A DNA stretch of 46,565 bases, taken from Flammeovirgaceae bacterium. Lineage in GTDB: Bacteria; Bacteroidota; Bacteroidia; Cytophagales; Cyclobacteriaceae. This document shows, in pieces, positions 17,048-25,311 of the stretch. Made by a program: the position numbers and the translations under genes. Numbering within the stretch: the first letter of the stretch is position 1; each line of letters starts with the position of its first letter. The stretch spans positions 1 through 46,565 of the forward strand of contig JAJTGQ010000098.1 in assembly GCA_021299455.1 (NCBI GenBank), in the 5' to 3' direction. Below the pieces are notes generated by a model. That model saw only the letters and a program-made list of their open reading frames with translations. It was not told the origin of the DNA and did no database searches.

Positions 17048-17818
17048 TTATCTGAGCCCTTTTATGAATCGAGTGATATCCGAGTCCAGATCAGTGCTGT
17101 TTTTTAGAAGATTAATGAAAGCACTCCCGACAATGCCGCCTGACGAATACTTGCTCACCGCTGCAAACGTTTCATGATTAGAAACCCCAAATCCAATTAG
17201 AAAAGGGTTTTCTAACTTCATGTCTTGCAATCTTTTGAAATACGATTCTTGCTCGGTAGAAAATCCTTGCTGCGCACCCGTAGTACTAGACGAAGAAACC
17301 GCGTAAATAAATCCGTTAGAAGCTGCGTCAATTTTTCGAATCCGTTTTTCTGAAGTAGTCGGAGAGATCAAAAAGGTATTGGTCAATTCGTTTTCATCAA
17401 CAATTTTTTTATACATCAACAGGTATTCGTCTACGGGTAGGTCTGGGAGAATTAGACCATCTACACCCACTCTTGCTGCTTCCTTTACAAATTTTTCAAA
17501 CCCAAATTGTAAGACCGGATTCAGATAGCCCATCAAAATAATGGGAAGGCTTACACATTTTCGAATCCCTCTAACTTGTTCTAGTAACAGATGCAGGTTC
17601 ATTCCATTATCTAGAGCAATCTTATTACTTTCCTGAATAGTAGGCCCATCCGCAATCGGGTCAGAAAACGGAATACCAATTTCAATGATATCTACACCTG
17701 CTTTTTCGAGATGTTGAGCGATTGGAATAGTAGCTGTGAGCGTTGGAAAACCTGCTGTATAATAAACTGAAAGCAAGCTTTTCCTTTTTGATTTGAATAG
17801 TTCTTTAATTCGATTCAT
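17048..17818 (-). CDS. trpA: Tryptophan synthase alpha subunit
   Basis: A 256-residue TIM-barrel enzyme that cleaves indole-3-glycerol phosphate and channels indole to TrpB. Family signatures: YYTAGFPTL at about 19-27, the catalytic-Glu block DIIEIGIPFSDPIADGP, the catalytic Asp in VDGLILPDLPVDE, and the phosphate-binding loop GFGVSNHE. It starts six bases after the trpB stop and is the last biosynthetic gene of the E-G-D-C-F-B-A operon. Confidence 0.97.
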   Translation of the reverse strand: MNRIKELFKSKRKSLLSVYYTAGFPTLTATIPIAQHLEKAGVDIIEIGIPFSDPIADGPTIQESNKIALDNGMNLHLLLEQVRGIRKCVSLPIILMGYLNPVLQFGFEKFVKEAARVGVDGLILPDLPVDEYLLMYKKIVDENELTNTFLISPTTSEKRIRKIDAASNGFIYAVSSSSTTGAQQGFSTEQESYFKRLQDMKLENPFLIGFGVSNHETFAAVSKYSSGGIVGSAFINLLKNSTDLDSDITRFIKGLR

Positions 17819-17824
17819 CGGCTG

Positions 17825-19006
17825 TCAATATTTTCCCCATTTGATATACGTCTCCAAATCTTTATCTCCCCTGCCGCTTAAATTAATCACCACCACATCA
17901 TCTGGGGCAAAGTCCATCTTACTCAGCACGGCAATAGCGTGTGCCGTTTCAATTGCAGGAATAATTCCCTCTGTTCGGCTTAATTCAATTCCCGCATTCA
18001 TAGCTTCGTCATCTGTAACGTTCAAAAATTGAACACGCCCAGTTTCAAAAAGATGTGCGTGCATCGGACCAATGCCGGGATAATCTAATCCTGCAGAAAT
18101 AGAATATGGTTCGACCACCTGGCCATCAGCTGTCTGCATCAATAGCGATTTACTTCCATGCAATATTCCTACTTTACCCAGCACGGTTGTAGCGGCAGAC
18201 TTTCCTGTATCGACTCCTTTTCCACCTGCTTCCACTCCTATCAATTGAACATGCTCATCATTTAAAAAATGATAAAATGCCCCTGCTGCGTTGCTGCCAC
18301 CACCTACACAAGCAATCACATAATCAGGAAATGGATTACCGATTTCTTCATTCAGCTGATTTCGAATCTCTTCGCTAATGACGGATTGGAACCGGGCAAC
18401 CATATCAGGATAGGGATGTGGCCCAACTACCGAACCAATAATGTAGTGTGTATCGGTCGGATGATTGATCCAATGGCGCATAGCTTGGTTAGTGGCATCT
18501 TTTAACGTCATACTTCCGCTCAAGGCAGGCACGACCTTAGTCCCCAAAATACGCATGCGTTCGACATTAGGCTTTTGTCGCTCCATGTCATGCTTGCCCA
18601 TATACACAATACACTCCATTCCCATTAAGGCGCAAACAGTAGCGGTTGCAACACCGTGTTGTCCAGCTCCGGTCTCGGCAATTATCTTGCGCTTGCCTAA
18701 CCGTTGTGCCAGCAGAATCTGTCCAATCGTGTTGTTGATTTTATGCGCACCAGTGTGACACAAGTCTTCCCGCTTTAGATAGATCTTAGCTTTATATCGC
18801 TCAGACATACGCTTTGCGAAATACAATGGTGTCGGTCTACCAACGAAATCTTTAAGCAGCTGATCAAACTCAGCTATAAAGCCATCCTCTTGAATGATCT
18901 TCAGATAGTTGAGTCGGAGCTCTTCAATATTTGGATACAACATTTCAGGGATATAGGCTCCACCAAACTGTCCATAGTATCCTTTCTCGTCAACTGCGTA
19001 GGTCAT
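17825..19006 (-). CDS. trpB: Tryptophan synthase beta subunit
   Basis: A 393-residue PLP enzyme that condenses indole with serine. The PLP lysine is in the block [25 protein letters not shown] and the phosphate-binding [10 protein letters not shown] are present. The N-terminus [13 protein letters not shown] is typical of TrpB1. The ATG at 19006 lies only four bases downstream of an eight-copy heptamer repeat that fills the gap to trpF, so its initiation region could be influenced by repeat number. Confidence 0.97.
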
Positions 19007-19010
19007 AAAA

Positions 19011-19066
19011 AGAATTTAGAATTTAGAATTTAGAATTTAGAATTTAGAATTTAGAATTTAGAATTT
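19011..19066. repeat. Heptamer tandem repeat, eight copies of AGAATTT
   Basis: Fifty-six bases made of eight exact copies of AGAATTT (minus strand AAATTCT). On the minus strand it encodes the last residues of TrpF (LNSKF) and its TAA stop at 19046-19044, then continues through the intergenic space to four bases before trpB. Because 7 is not a multiple of 3, all three frames of the array are read in turn and each soon meets TAA, so the array carries its own stop whatever the copy number. Confidence 0.95.
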
Positions 19067-19679
19067 CCAGAATGGATTCAATTTTTACGATGCTCTTTAA
19101 CCCAGGCGAATCTTCCACTCCGCTATTGACATCAATGGCGTGTAGATTCATTGTAGAAAGATTTCTTATTCCAGAAATATTTTCTTGGGTCAAACCACCA
19201 CCCAAGAAAAAGGGAACTCGTTGATGAAAGTTAACTAATAAATTCCAATCGAAAGGAATGGCATTGCCACCGTAAAATTTGCCTTTCGTGTCGAACAGAA
19301 AATAATCTGCTGCCCCTTCATAGAGCATTGTTGTATCGAAATCAAAAGTTGTGTCAATGGAAAATACTTTGATTACCCCAACACCGAACCTTTTTAGCGT
19401 TTGACAATCTTCAACAGGTTCGCTTCCATGCAGTTGTACAAAATCCAATTTCAAATCGGTGGCAATCCTCTTGATGACTTCCACTTCCTCATTGACAAAC
19501 ACACCTACTTTTTTTACTGATTTTGGCAACTCCGTAGGCATGTTAAATCCGACACCAACGCAACGAGGTGATGGCTCATAGAAAATAAAGCCCATGTAAT
19601 CCGGATTCAACGAAGCCACTTCCGTGATGTTATCACGGTTGCCACAAACTTTAAGTGCTATAGAACGACCCTCTGCCAT
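19044..19679 (-). CDS. trpF: Phosphoribosylanthranilate isomerase
   Basis: A 211-residue TIM-barrel enzyme for the Amadori rearrangement step of Trp synthesis. KVCGNRDN near the N-terminus contains the catalytic Cys of the family KxCG motif, YMGFIFYEPSPR follows, and the catalytic Asp is in YFLFDTKGK; FFLGGGLTQEN and AIDVNSGVEDSPGLK bind phosphate. Its ATG directly follows the trpC stop (TAAATG), so the two are coupled. Its C-terminal five residues and stop are encoded inside the heptamer repeat, so the very end of the protein is set by the array. Confidence 0.96.
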   Translation of the reverse strand: MAEGRSIALKVCGNRDNITEVASLNPDYMGFIFYEPSPRCVGVGFNMPTELPKSVKKVGVFVNEEVEVIKRIATDLKLDFVQLHGSEPVEDCQTLKRFGVGVIKVFSIDTTFDFDTTMLYEGAADYFLFDTKGKFYGGNAIPFDWNLLVNFHQRVPFFLGGGLTQENISGIRNLSTMNLHAIDVNSGVEDSPGLKSIVKIESILEILNSKF

Positions 19680-20483
19680 TTATTTGGTCAGTTGGTTTAA
19701 CTCTTCAATGAAATCTTTCGCTGCTTGCTCCGGTCGACTATGCTTCATAAAAGTCTCTCCCATCAAAAAACCTTCGTACCCATGCTTTCTTAGTTCCACA
19801 ATAGCTGCGGGTGAATCAATGCCACTTTCAGAAATCAATACTTTTTCTTTCGGCATGAATGGGGCTAATTTTTTTGAAATTTCGAGTGAAACAACAAAGG
19901 TTTTCAAATCACGATTGTTAACACCAACCAAATCAACTTCCGCTTCGTGATTGGATGTTAACTCTTCTGCCGTATGTACTTCCATCAAAATCTCCAGCCC
20001 CAATGATTTCGCAAATAGCGCCAGCTCATTTAATCGTTTAACAGGCAGAGCAGCAGCAATTAACAATATAGCATCTGCACCAATCGATTTTGCTTCCACT
20101 ATCTGGTATTCATCCACTATAAAATCCTTCCGCAGAATCGGACAAAAATTGAATTTCCTCGCCATCGTCAAGTCGTCACTACTGCCTCCAAAAAATTCTT
20201 TATCTGTAAGGATCGATAGCGCGGATGCGCCTGCCTGCATGTACCCAATGGAGGTTCGCTCGATAGAAACGTTCGAATTAATCGTTCCCTTCGAGGGTGA
20301 TTTCCGTTTGATCTCTGCAATGATGCCAGATTTGTCTTTTCGTTGAACGTACTTCTTCAGGGAAACTGTGGGGGAAGAAAAGAAAATACTCTGTTCTAAA
20401 AGCTTCACTGGATAAAGACTCTTGCGCTCGGCTACTTCTTTGTGTTTATGTGCAATAATTTTATCCAGGATATTCATATTCAT
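19680..20483 (-). CDS. trpC: Indole-3-glycerol phosphate synthase
   Basis: About 267 residues, closing the indole ring in Trp synthesis. Family motifs include IIAEIKRKSPSKG (catalytic Lys), LRKDFIVDEYQI, LVGVNNRDLKTF and LISESGI. I chose ATG 20483 (MNMNILDKIIAHK); ATG 20477 is equally possible and matches the usual MNILDKI start, while an upstream in-frame TTG at 20513 adds an unlikely extension. It is a separate protein here, not fused to TrpF as in enteric bacteria. Confidence 0.95.
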   Translation of the reverse strand: MNMNILDKIIAHKHKEVAERKSLYPVKLLEQSIFFSSPTVSLKKYVQRKDKSGIIAEIKRKSPSKGTINSNVSIERTSIGYMQAGASALSILTDKEFFGGSSDDLTMARKFNFCPILRKDFIVDEYQIVEAKSIGADAILLIAAALPVKRLNELALFAKSLGLEILMEVHTAEELTSNHEAEVDLVGVNNRDLKTFVVSLEISKKLAPFMPKEKVLISESGIDSPAAIVELRKHGYEGFLMGETFMKHSRPEQAAKDFIEELNQLTK

Positions 20484-20521
20484 TTGTGTTAAAGCAGAGA
20501 AACCTTTGATCAATCTCCTGC

Positions 20522-21508
20522 TTAACTCCCTAACAACTTTTTAAAACAACCCAATGCAGCTCTTGATTCTAATGCTTGCCTGGCTTTTGCCAAAGCCGAA
20601 GCCAATCCTTCCTTTTGATGCCCACAAAATAGTGCCATCCCCGCATTTGCAATCACAGCCGAATTTTGTGCTTCTGTACCATTGCCTTCCAGAATAGCCA
20701 TAAATATTTTAGCAGATGCTTCCACCGTATCTCCTCCTTTCAATTCATCAGATCGCAAATGCGGCAAATTCAAATCTTGTGGTTCCGCCAATACTTCTCC
20801 CTCATTGTAAAAATATTTAAATGCCCCTGTAAGCGAAACCTCATCATACCCATCCAGTGAATGAAGAATCACAAAGTCTTTGTCTGTCTGCTGGTAAAGA
20901 TATCCATATTGCCTTGCCAGTTCCAGACTGAACACACCCACCAATTGTCTTTTTGGGAATGCCGGGTTTACCATTGGCCCCAGCATGTTAAAAAATGTCT
21001 TTACGCCCAACTCTCTGCGAATGGGCGCTACATTTTTCATAGCAGGATGAAACAGAGGCGCATGCATAAAGCAGATATTGGCCCGATCTAAGCTGCGTTT
21101 GAGTTCATCAATATTTTTGGTGAATTTACAACCAAAGTGTTCCAGCACATTAGACGAACCCGATACGGAACTAACGCCATAATTGCCATGCTTGGCAACA
21201 GGCTGGCCGGCTGCTGCAACAACAAAGGAACTTAGCGTGGATATGTTAAAGGTGTTCTTGCTATCGCCACCTGTGCCGCACACATCCATCACCGGTAAAT
21301 CAAGTCTCACAGGAATACAGAGTTCTAACATCGCATCTCGAAAACCCTGAAGCTCATCAATCGTGATGCTTCGCATCATATAGACGGTCATAAAGGCTGA
21401 AGTCTGACTTGCATTAAATTTACCGGAAGCAAGATCAACCAAAACCTGCTTGGCGGTTTCCTTACTCAACGAACGATGTTCAATCAATTCATTCAAAATC
21501 TCTTTCAT
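20522..21508 (-). CDS. trpD: Anthranilate phosphoribosyltransferase
   Basis: A 328-residue enzyme joining anthranilate to PRPP. The glycine-rich PRPP loop DVCGTGGDSKNTFNIST and the KHGNYGVSS motif are clear, as are the anthranilate-site segment with MHAPLFHPAMKNV and the GPMVNPA block. It starts two bases after trpG, from which it is separate rather than fused. Length is slightly shorter than the ~340 residues common in the family, with no missing motif. Confidence 0.96.
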   Translation of the reverse strand: MKEILNELIEHRSLSKETAKQVLVDLASGKFNASQTSAFMTVYMMRSITIDELQGFRDAMLELCIPVRLDLPVMDVCGTGGDSKNTFNISTLSSFVVAAAGQPVAKHGNYGVSSVSGSSNVLEHFGCKFTKNIDELKRSLDRANICFMHAPLFHPAMKNVAPIRRELGVKTFFNMLGPMVNPAFPKRQLVGVFSLELARQYGYLYQQTDKDFVILHSLDGYDEVSLTGAFKYFYNEGEVLAEPQDLNLPHLRSDELKGGDTVEASAKIFMAILEGNGTEAQNSAVIANAGMALFCGHQKEGLASALAKARQALESRAALGCFKKLLGS

Positions 21509-21510
21509 AC

Positions 21511-22077
21511 TTACAACGTCAACCAGTTTTTAATCATCAACTGTCCATGTTCCGTCAGGATTGACTCCGGATGGAATTGAACACCGCGCACATCAAATTT
21601 TTTGTGCGCAATTGCCATCACCAACCCATCTTTATTCGTGGCGGTAACCGTAAGCTCGTTTGGAATACGATTGGCCTTCACTGCCCATGAGTGATAATGA
21701 CAGGCCTGAAAAGAAGTCGGGATTCCGTGAAAAAGTTTATCCGATGGATCCACGAGTTCAATTGCAGATGTCACGCCATGCAAAACAGTTGGAATATTAA
21801 ACAGCTCTCCACCAAAAACCTCGGCAATACCCTGATGCCCCAGGCACACCCCTAAGATACTCTTCGAGGGGGCATAGGTCTTGATCACTTCCTTCATAAT
21901 CCCCGCCTCATCTGGAATACCCGGCCCGGGCGACAAAAGTATTTTGTCGTATTTTTTTACCTCACCCACCGATATCTTATCATTTCTAAAAATATCCATT
22001 GGAAATGCTAATTCACGAATGATATGCACCAGGTTGTATGTAAATGAATCGTAATTATCTAAAACAAGTATCTTCAT
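21511..22077 (-). CDS. trpG: Anthranilate synthase component II (glutamine amidotransferase)
   Basis: A 188-residue class I glutamine amidotransferase supplying ammonia to TrpE. The triad is complete: Cys78 in GVCLGHQGIAEVFGG, and His169 with Glu171 in VQFHPESI. LDNYDSFTYNLVH opens the domain. It starts two bases after the trpE stop. In some bacteria this subunit is shared with p-aminobenzoate synthase; its place in the trp operon argues for Trp synthesis here. Confidence 0.95.
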   Translation of the reverse strand: MKILVLDNYDSFTYNLVHIIRELAFPMDIFRNDKISVGEVKKYDKILLSPGPGIPDEAGIMKEVIKTYAPSKSILGVCLGHQGIAEVFGGELFNIPTVLHGVTSAIELVDPSDKLFHGIPTSFQACHYHSWAVKANRIPNELTVTATNKDGLVMAIAHKKFDVRGVQFHPESILTEHGQLMIKNWLTL

Positions 22078-22079
22078 AG

Positions 22080-23483
22080 CTAAATTTGTTCGGCCATCTT
22101 TATCGCTTTTCGCAGCGCCTCCACTTTATTGTTTACTTCTTGCAATTCACTTTCAGGCTTCGACTTGGCCACCGCTCCCGCGCCCGCTTGAAAAATCAAT
22201 TTATTCTCTTTACTCAAAAACGTGCGGATCATAATGGCCATGTTCACGTCTCCCGTAAAGCCGATAAATCCGATGGCTCCTCCGTAAAAGCTGCGATTGA
22301 CATTTTCATATTGATCGATCAGCTTCATCGCCATCGGTTTGGGTGCACCCGACAACGTACCAGCAGGGAACGTATCAGTAGCCAGTTGAATGGACGATAC
22401 ATCTGAATGAAGTTTGCCAGACACCTTGGAAACCAGGTGAATGACATGGGAATAATACTGTATTTCTTTGAAGACCTCCACCGTCACCCCGTTTGCGCTC
22501 CGGCTTAGATCGTTGCGCGCCAAATCCACCAACATCACATGCTCTGCATTTTCTTTTTCATCTTTCGATAGCCTCTCAGCGAGTAGGGCATCTTCGTGGT
22601 CATTGCCGGATCGCTTAAATGTTCCTGCAATGGGATATATACTGGCTTCGTTATTTTTTATTTGAATCTGCGCTTCAGGTGACGAACCAAATAGCTTAAC
22701 GCTTCCATAGTCGAAGTAAAAAAGATACGGAGATGGGTTGATGGACCGCAAGGCGCGATAAACGTTGAATTCATCCCCCACAAACTGTTGCTCAAATCGC
22801 CTCGAAAAAACGATTTGAAAAACATCGCCTCGCTGGCAATGGTGAATGCCCGATTGCACCATTGACAAATAGTCCTTGTCTGTAAGATTGGAGACCTCGC
22901 CATCCCGAGACCGGAAGCTGAACGTAGCAAAACGGTTGCTGTAGATTATTTTCTCTAGCCTTTCCAATCCCAATTTCTGGTGCGGGTCACCTTCCACACT
23001 ATTTTCAAATAATATCAATTCATTGCTGAAATGATCGATAACGATCACGTAGCGGTATACTTTGTATAGAAGATCGGGCAGCAAATCCTCTTTCTTTCGA
23101 ATTTCTATATCTTCAAAGAACCGTACGGTATCATAGGTCATGTAGCCGAATAATCCTGCGTAGGGATACTTTGAAATAGCAGAGCCGACCTCAAACGAAT
23201 CTCGAAAGTTTTCCAGGCTTTGTACAACCAATTTATCAGAGGTGATCGGTAGGCTTGATTTCCTCCCATCCGGAAAAACAGTGTCAACGGTGGTGCCTTT
23301 AAGTTGAATAGATGCGATGGGATCACAACAAATAAAAGACAAACTGTTTTCATGGCCATGATAATCTGAACTCTCCAATAAAATACTGCCAGCAAAGATG
23401 TCTCTCACTTTCAGATAGATGTTAACTGGCGTGAGTGTATCGGCTAGCATTTTCTTGGATTGGGTAGTTACTTTGTATCGCAT
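22080..23483 (-). CDS. trpE: Anthranilate synthase component I
   Basis: A 467-residue chorismate-utilising enzyme and first committed step of Trp synthesis. The N-terminal domain has SILLESSD at about 33-40, the LLES element that binds Trp in feedback-inhibited TrpE. The catalytic half contains GDVFQIVFSRRFE, SPYLFYFDYG, PIAGTFKR, DLARNDLSR and GTLSGAPKPMAM. It is the first enzyme gene of the operon, and its ATG is about 41 bases after an intrinsic terminator preceded by a Trp-rich leader, so both feedback inhibition and attenuation are indicated. Confidence 0.97.
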   Translation of the reverse strand: MRYKVTTQSKKMLADTLTPVNIYLKVRDIFAGSILLESSDYHGHENSLSFICCDPIASIQLKGTTVDTVFPDGRKSSLPITSDKLVVQSLENFRDSFEVGSAISKYPYAGLFGYMTYDTVRFFEDIEIRKKEDLLPDLLYKVYRYVIVIDHFSNELILFENSVEGDPHQKLGLERLEKIIYSNRFATFSFRSRDGEVSNLTDKDYLSMVQSGIHHCQRGDVFQIVFSRRFEQQFVGDEFNVYRALRSINPSPYLFYFDYGSVKLFGSSPEAQIQIKNNEASIYPIAGTFKRSGNDHEDALLAERLSKDEKENAEHVMLVDLARNDLSRSANGVTVEVFKEIQYYSHVIHLVSKVSGKLHSDVSSIQLATDTFPAGTLSGAPKPMAMKLIDQYENVNRSFYGGAIGFIGFTGDVNMAIMIRTFLSKENKLIFQAGAGAVAKSKPESELQEVNNKVEALRKAIKMAEQI

Positions 23484-23519: not shown

Positions 23520-23558
23520 AAATAAAAAGCCCGCCCCGATGGATCGGGGCGGGCTTTT
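23520..23558 (-). terminator. Trp attenuator: intrinsic terminator in the trpE leader
   Basis: On the minus strand a perfect GC-rich stem (GCCCGCCCCGAT pairs with ATCGGGGCGGGC, extended by A-T pairs) with a short loop is followed by five T. It stands between the leader peptide and trpE, about 41 bases before the trpE ATG, so any transcript entering trp from upstream must pass it. Its 5' arm can instead pair with 23600-23586, giving an antiterminator. Confidence 0.9.
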
Positions 23559-23576
23559 ACAAGAATTATCTTAAAA

Positions 23577-23648
23577 CTAAAACGCAGCCATGCACCGATC
23601 GAAATTCGATTTGTGCCACCACCACATCATAGTATTTACATTTTTCAT
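23577..23648 (-). CDS. trpL: Trp operon leader peptide with three consecutive Trp codons
   Basis: A 23-codon ORF starting MKNVNTMMWWWHKS and ending MAAF with TAG at 23579-23577. Residues 9-11 are TGG TGG TGG; Trp is rare, so a triple run 19 bases upstream of an intrinsic terminator and ahead of trpE is hard to explain except as a Trp sensor. Its ATG follows the THX stop with no gap (TAAATG), the same junction used between trpC and trpF, suggesting coupled translation. A ribosome stalled on the Trp codons would cover the first hairpin's left arm and free the antiterminator segment; one reaching the stop would mask it and let the terminator form. Confidence 0.9.
   Translation of the reverse strand: MKNVNTMMWWWHKSNFDRCMAAF
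23586..23616 (-). promoter_or_regulatory. Competing pairing segments of the trp attenuator
   Basis: First alternative: GCAC (23616-23613) pairs with GTGC (23595-23592) and ATCGA (23610-23606) pairs with TCGAT (23602-23598), a hairpin starting in the last Trp codon. Second alternative: GATCGGTGCATGGCT (23600-23586) pairs with AGCCCGCCCCGATC (23555-23542) of the terminator 5' arm, about 12 pairs with a U-C mismatch and a small internal loop. The two are exclusive, as needed for ribosome-controlled attenuation. Confidence 0.75.
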
Positions 23649-23837
23649 TTATTCTGCCGCCTCTTTCTTTTTAACAACTCGTTTTACTTTTGGCTTTGCA
23701 TCTGTTTCCGCGATCACTGCCTTCTTGACACTGGAAACACGCTTCAATCGGGCTTTAATCTTTTTCTTTGATCTACTTACCCCAAAAGAACCAATTGTTC
23801 TTTTTCCTTTAGCCGATTTTTTATCTCCTCTTCCCAT
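23649..23837 (-). CDS. 30S ribosomal protein THX family
   Basis: A 62-residue, highly basic protein starting MGRGDKKSAKGKRTIGSFG, which matches the small THX ribosomal protein found on the 30S head in Thermus and Bacteroidota. The Lys-rich tail (VKRVVKKKEAAE) is a longer extension than in Thermus. I chose ATG 23837; an upstream in-frame extension is non-coding in character. Its TAA abuts the trp leader ATG, and I see no clear promoter between the THX start and the leader, so it may share its transcript with the trp operon. A near-match -7 box TATACTTG lies upstream of its start. Confidence 0.85.
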   Translation of the reverse strand: MGRGDKKSAKGKRTIGSFGVSRSKKKIKARLKRVSSVKKAVIAETDAKPKVKRVVKKKEAAE

Positions 23838-23945
23838 TAGTAATTTGTTGATTATGCCGCAAGTATAACCACTCTTTGTTAAATAAAAAAAGGCACTGAA
23901 CAATTTATTGAGTTATGAGTTAATTTTATACCAAACAACAAACAA

Positions 23946-25192: not shown

Positions 25193-25206
25193 AACTGCTA
25201 TCTTTG
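25175..25206 (+). promoter_or_regulatory. Promoter of the SRP RNA gene
   Basis: TTG at 25175-25177 and, 21 bases later, TATCTTTG at 25199-25206, a full match to the Bacteroidota -7 box. Position fits transcription starting at about 25211, the first base of the SRP RNA stem. The -35-like part lies inside the end of the 78-residue gene. Confidence 0.7.
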
Positions 25207-25210
25207 CAGC

Positions 25211-25311
25211 GGCAAACTGGCACGACCAGCTCCTGCTGAACTCCCCCAGGATCGGAAGGTAGCAAGGGTAGGCGGTTGTAGCGGTGCGATGTTCAGTTTG
25301 CCACTTTTTTT
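25211..25311 (+). ncRNA. ffs: Signal recognition particle RNA (4.5S type)
   Basis: About 92 bases of RNA (25211-25302). The ends pair as GGCAAACTG with CAGTTTGCC. The centre holds the universally conserved apical region CCAGGATCGGAAGGTAGCAA (SRP domain IV), with the GGAA tetraloop and the asymmetric loop that bind Ffh. A T run at 25305-25311 directly after the closing stem serves as terminator. Together with Ffh it targets membrane and secreted proteins. The exact 3' end is uncertain by a few bases. Confidence 0.93.

Follow-up and report, generated by a model that had tools for sequence, protein, structure and literature searches.

The trpEGDCFBA operon in the window, the stretch of 46,565 nucleotides analysed here, is very probably controlled by a classical ribosome-mediated transcription attenuator embedded behind the ribosomal protein gene thx, a reading to which we assign, from the comparison of sequences, a probability of about 0.85. 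The locus combines a leader peptide with three adjacent tryptophan codons (WWW), three competing helices, covariation and a thx-leader-trpE order that is kept in relatives. The sequence-only reading, made before the present analysis, had recognized the logic of classical trp attenuation at this place, and the leader, the competing helices and their conservation bear it out.

All elements of the unit are encoded on the minus strand, and the records nearest to the window carry the labels Bacteroidia, Cytophagales and Cyclobacteriaceae. The gene thx (23649..23837) encodes the 62-residue 30S ribosomal protein THX (TIGR04560, 31.8 bits, cut-off 26), the one THX match in its own genome, and its UAA is immediately followed by the AUG of the 23-codon leader ORF trpL (MKNVNTMMWWWHKSNFDRCMAAF*, 23577..23648). 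The three regulatory Trp codons, TGG TGG TGG, occupy 23616..23624, and a 1:2 (protector/pause) hairpin identified by folding (23592..23616), GCAC/GTGC around ATCGA/TCGAT, begins inside the last of them. Segment 2, the 5' side of the antiterminator (23586..23600), is paired in the computed duplex with segment 3, its 3' side (23542..23555), which is also part of the 5' arm and loop of a 3:4 intrinsic terminator hairpin (23525..23558, -29.3 kcal/mol) followed by a T-rich tract. From the end of this hairpin, 41 nt remain to the ATG of trpE at 23483. The trpE gene (22080..23483; Pfam PF00425 and PF04715 above cutoff) encodes anthranilate synthase component I, and each gene of the operon remainder, trpG, trpD, trpC, trpF, trpB and trpA (17048..22077), has NCBIfam matches, those of trpF being under every curated NCBIfam cutoff shown (best E 1.1e-46).

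The 23-codon ORF with its three TGG codons and a terminator about 41 bases before trpE had both been described in the sequence-only reading and were recovered here, and the second pairing it proposed, of 23600-23586 with 23555-23542, was returned with the same coordinates by the duplex computation. Three features that define this class of attenuator are present at the locus: a short ORF in which codons for the operon's own amino acid form a run, an intrinsic terminator that separates the leader from the first gene, and an antiterminator using the terminator 5' arm (here with modest covariation). Elsewhere in the window, a small SRP RNA (RF04183, 77 bits) lies on the plus strand at 25204-25306.

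Conservation of the leader and of the terminator

Sequence upstream of trpE was examined at 190 loci, of which 110 belong to the window's own family and 80 come from across Bacteroidota. For the own-family set 118 genomes were searched and trpE was found in 111; the 80-locus set consists of genome_contigs records, many of them metagenome-assembled, and the two sets were used without de-duplication against each other. Two TrpE paralogues (L002 and L003) were removed before all 190-locus counts, trpE pieces in G087 and at a second place in G115 were left out of the upstream set, and the shuffle comparison of 186 loci leaves out L052, L084, L088 and L116, whose upstream regions are short.

In 178 of the 190 loci, the 420 nt before trpE contain an ORF in which two or more Trp codons are adjacent (WW); the Trp run on which the sequence-only reading relied is conserved in relatives. 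Within the same distance, WWW occurred in an ATG-started ORF in 153/186 loci, against zero in every one of ten shuffling rounds and zero on the antisense strand, and WW in such an ORF in 174/186 loci, against 0 to 4 in shuffles. Outside the Trp run the leader peptides vary widely among loci; in the same-genus genome G284 (L222), MMWWWHKSNLDRCMAAI is retained in the leader. The WW leader was missed in 12 of the 190 loci (L016, L040, L056, L058, L084, L124, L139, L141, L144, L168, L172 and L190): in L056 and L058 a Trp leader lies farther upstream, L016 has a WHW peptide instead, and L190 (G014) has a sub-threshold match to the Rfam family RF01692 before trpE. Other WWW leaders were also sought in the window's own genome, where TGGTGGTGGCAY occurs at 7 sites, of which only the trp site was found by eye to present a short ATG-led ORF with a GC-rich hairpin and a T tract; the plain TGGTGGTGG pattern occurs there at 55 + 46 sites.

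A hairpin with a T tract was present 3' of the Trp codons in all 178 WW-leader loci, at a distance of 42-81 nt (median 62) from the last Trp codon. Some hairpin with a T tract was also present in 118 of 178 shuffles, and its presence alone carries little information; a hairpin of -11 kcal/mol or stronger with a T tract, in turn, was found in 177/178 native loci versus 12/178 shuffles, and no shuffle equalled the hairpin strength of its native partner (n = 178). The folding energy of the 165-nt leader is 5.6 sd lower than that of its shuffles, none of 200 being as low, and much of this difference is due to the terminator.

Two modules of Trp leader and terminator in series, apparently tandem attenuators, precede trpE in 13 of the 190 loci (L015, L017, L039, L059, L100, L105, L157, L161, L176, L177, L184, L187 and L188); a script had returned 14 loci, of which L152 was dropped by eye. 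RF01692 matches both modules, below its cutoff, in G075 (L015) and G116 (L188), and swapping segments between tandem modules did not always weaken the pairing (e.g., L015, L039, L059, L100 and L157).

Pairing, covariation and the position of the ribosome

The native 2:3 pairing of each locus was compared with pairings between species, relatedness and shared ancestry being uncorrected in this and in all the other pairing, shuffle and covariation tests. Native pairing was the stronger (mean -11.9 vs -9.3 kcal/mol), none of 2000 permutations being as low (n = 178), and the same was observed within the thx-embedded loci (-15.2 vs -12.6 kcal/mol; 0/2000; n = 19). For individual loci, the native antiterminator partner had a median rank of 21% and was among the best 5% in 37/178 cases (2/19 in the thx group). 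Pairs tying segment 2 to the stretch just 3' of the Trp codons numbered 5.2 per locus versus 1.8 in shuffles, and the 1:2 region folded on average 1.0 sd below shuffles, with 79/178 loci below -1 sd.

Covariation was evaluated by aligning ten close relatives, among them the window's locus. In the 1:2 hairpin, 3/9 pairs were doubly changed in at least one relative, and in the 1:2 and 3:4 helices together seven pairs were changed on both sides (shuffle mean 4.1; 14/500 shuffles reach 7). A slide by -1 also yields seven doubly changed pairs, but with fewer paired cells, and the covariation score of these two helices was above all 500 shuffles and all slides. In the 2:3 helix, 3/12 pairs were doubly changed, a number reached by 66/500 shuffles; its covariation score was reached by 9/500, and further pair types showed no excess over shuffles (381/500 reach the observed value). 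Base 23600, in segment 2, is a G with C at both of its partners in 7/10 aligned loci; L011 and L057 have A at this position and U at both partners, and L175 keeps the G with a broken 2:3 pair. The helices covary, and the compensatory changes by which the sequence-only reading was to be judged are clear in 1:2 and 3:4 and modest in 2:3.

Two antiterminator types were recognized among 19 embedded loci: in nine of them GUGAACAG pairs with the terminator arm and loop, and the remaining ten have GAUCGG or close variants paired with CCGAUC or variants. By eye, L227 (G336, from the window's genus and not used in model building) has the 1:2 stem of the window together with an antiterminator and terminator of the GUGAACAG type, and is seemingly intermediate between the two.

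The nascent RNA was folded as it stands before the terminator 3' arm emerges, with the ribosome modelled simply as a blocked stretch. For the window, the predicted number of terminator-arm bases held upstream is 11.3 when a ribosome sits on the last Trp codon, 8.9 when there is no ribosome and 1.0 when it has reached the leader stop, the corresponding means over 178 loci being 7.8, 6.8 and 2.5. More bases are held by the stalled state than with the ribosome at the stop in 168/178 loci, and in L007, L008, L036 and L037 more than 5 are still held with the ribosome at the stop. The ribosome-free fold contains nearly as much antiterminator as the stalled one; in this fold model the main switch is the position of the ribosome, and the 1:2 hairpin alone protects weakly at equilibrium. 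On the exclusion of the 2:3 pairing by the 1:2 hairpin, as claimed in the sequence-only reading, the evidence is mixed: the hairpin does start in the last Trp codon, overlaps the antiterminator and covaries, but the exclusion it gives in ribosome-free RNA is weak, and a ribosome at the leader stop is computed to remove far more of the antiterminator than the hairpin does.

Embedding behind thx and rival readings

In 32/190 loci, the 1 kb upstream of trpE contains a thx-like ORF (MG[KR]GD start). THX was matched in 68/118 family genomes. Of the 66 with both thx and a trpE call, 26 have thx on the strand of trpE and no more than 1 kb upstream of it; in the other 40, thx is 1-6 kb upstream (9), on the same contig but the opposite strand (5), far away (3) or on another contig (23). 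The genes thx and trpE are commonly linked in the family, and the embedded arrangement is one version of this linkage. The embedded loci total 22, the window included, namely 19 hand-picked from the 32 with thx because their gap does not exceed 15 nt, and another three from the covariance-model follow-up; the last Trp codon lies 30-45 nt downstream of the thx stop in these 22, a spacing partly set by the selection. Leader and thx share a reading frame in 16/22 embedded loci, an agreement that may come from shared ancestry.

The window has a promoter-like -7 box, TATACTTG (23860..23867, minus strand), 30 nt 5' of the thx start codon, with an imperfect -33 element. A -7 consensus of TAnnTTTG is given in the part of the Flavobacterium psychrophilum transcriptome study covered here (PMC9723704). 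In all 19 embedded loci a TAnnnTTG box stands 25-32 nt before thx and outscores every site within thx or the leader, on a score whose weights were set ad hoc by us after viewing the sequences. Because the leader abuts thx, a feature not noticed in the sequence-only reading, its promoter is probably the thx promoter.

RNA polymerase would start at this promoter and transcribe thx and the leader, and a ribosome finishing thx would reinitiate at the adjoining leader AUG. With charged tRNA-Trp present, the ribosome would reach the leader stop and cover segment 2, and the terminator would end the RNA, so that the attenuator would double as the thx terminator. With Trp-tRNA scarce, the ribosome would stall on WWW and mask segment 1, and segments 2 and 3 would pair, letting transcription run into trpE. 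The sequence-only reading had put forward the same course from stalling to a freed segment 2, antitermination and read-through into trpE, with which conservation, spacing and covariation are consistent. Promoter-like boxes, spacing and gene order indirectly favour a single thx-trpL-trp unit, likely a ribosomal-protein mRNA that is prolonged into the trp genes under Trp shortage. For this Cytophagales branch, we lean towards a trp operon without its own promoter, formed as a conditional extension of a ribosomal-protein mRNA, with the attenuator serving as thx terminator and the leader being read by ribosomes coming from thx.

The attenuator could instead be served by a promoter of its own inside thx, with thx as a neighbour without regulatory role, in the way that an internal promoter feeds the attenuator of E. 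coli pheST behind rplT. Weak promoter matches do occur inside thx, the best of them in L175 (6.9 vs 7.6 upstream), but the best-scoring site was upstream of thx at every one of the 19 loci (ad hoc score) and, among the 66 genomes, thx stands no farther than 1 kb upstream of trpE in 26 cases and at 1-6 kb in 9, which makes this arrangement rather unlikely. We consider it very improbable that the leader senses free tryptophan by arrest of the nascent peptide, in the manner of TnaC, and not Trp-tRNA: although the TnaC arrest peptide includes a Trp residue, the peptides studied here diverge between loci outside the Trp run, the Trp codons adjoin the 5' arm of the 1:2 hairpin, and the operon is biosynthetic.

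The hairpin might be a mere thx terminator and the WWW ORF a chance frame; the hairpin would end the thx transcript anyway, and terminators after short genes are common. This explanation is extremely unlikely, as WWW is present in 153/186 loci and absent from the shuffles, mostly at loci without a nearby thx-like ORF, the spacing between Trp codons and hairpin is narrow, and segment 2 matches the terminator arm within species; the conservation of WWW, the native pairing and the hairpin shuffle control led us to reject it.

Relation to known leaders

Rfam names RF01692 the Bacteroidete tryptophan peptide leader RNA; the sequence-only reading could not say whether such a leader had been described for this lineage, and a trp leader of Bacteroidetes is thereby on record. 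Table 1 of Weinberg et al. (2010; PMC2864571) has a row for this Bacteroid-trp RNA, and the part of that source considered here does not mention thx. The window resembles RF01692 in belonging to the same phylum and in having a Trp-codon peptide leader before trp genes, but reaches 22.8 bits against a gathering cutoff of 49. None of the 118 family genomes passes this cutoff, with no match in the window's genome; sub-cutoff matches occur in 40 of the 118, 33 of them just upstream of trpE. Scores above the cutoff were obtained in 4/20 loci tested, L043, L053, L085 and L099 (Aquimarina, Spongiivirga, Flavobacterium and Gillisia, respectively), which we take to be Flavobacteriaceae.

The window shares with the proteobacterial trp leader (RF00513, Trp_leader) and E. 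coli trpL the Trp-codon leader, the 1:2, 2:3 and 3:4 helices and a T tract before trpE, but scores 27.9 bits against a gathering cutoff of 41; its leader has three Trp codons, where E. coli trpL has two, and follows a ribosomal protein gene. Membership in either Rfam family by score was rejected, both values being below cutoff. In E. coli rplT-pheM-pheST, a leader-peptide attenuator is likewise located downstream of a ribosomal protein gene, but a different one, and it senses Phe and controls a tRNA synthetase. Comparative surveys were reportedly carried out by Vitreschak in 2004 and Lopatovskaya in 2010.

In a covariance-model search, model R1 had a match in 192/291 genomes at E 0.01, which is not a count of attenuators: among seven R1 loci inspected, L222, L224, L227 and L232 are trp leaders, and in L228 (45.7 bits), L229 and L230 a Trp leader was absent at the match. 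The weak R1 matches are presumably ordinary hairpins.

The F. psychrophilum transcriptome gave strong clues that leader-peptide attenuation acts ahead of amino-acid operons; neither trp nor tryptophan occurs as a term in the main text of that study (PMC9723704). A Bacteroidetes trp leader was not found in the parts of PMC4833913, PMC2965389 and PMC6429828 covered here, and within the open-access literature we found no paper on ribosomal protein THX together with Bacteroidetes or with an operon. The switch is of a known kind and has a divergent form in this lineage; its embedding behind thx is a variant that we did not find in print.

In the parts of the literature covered here, codon-stall attenuation of trp in this phylum is represented by a computed motif (PMC2864571) or by clues (PMC9723704). 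The comparative and covariation evidence points to codon-stall trp attenuation that is widespread in Bacteroidota, and in the embedded loci an amino-acid operon appears to borrow the promoter of a ribosomal protein gene and its ribosomes. If the trp genes are an extension of the thx mRNA, Trp synthesis would be tied both to translation capacity and to the charging of Trp-tRNA and, if this holds phylum-wide, the coupling of a leader to its upstream gene would offer a testable route to prompt leader translation.
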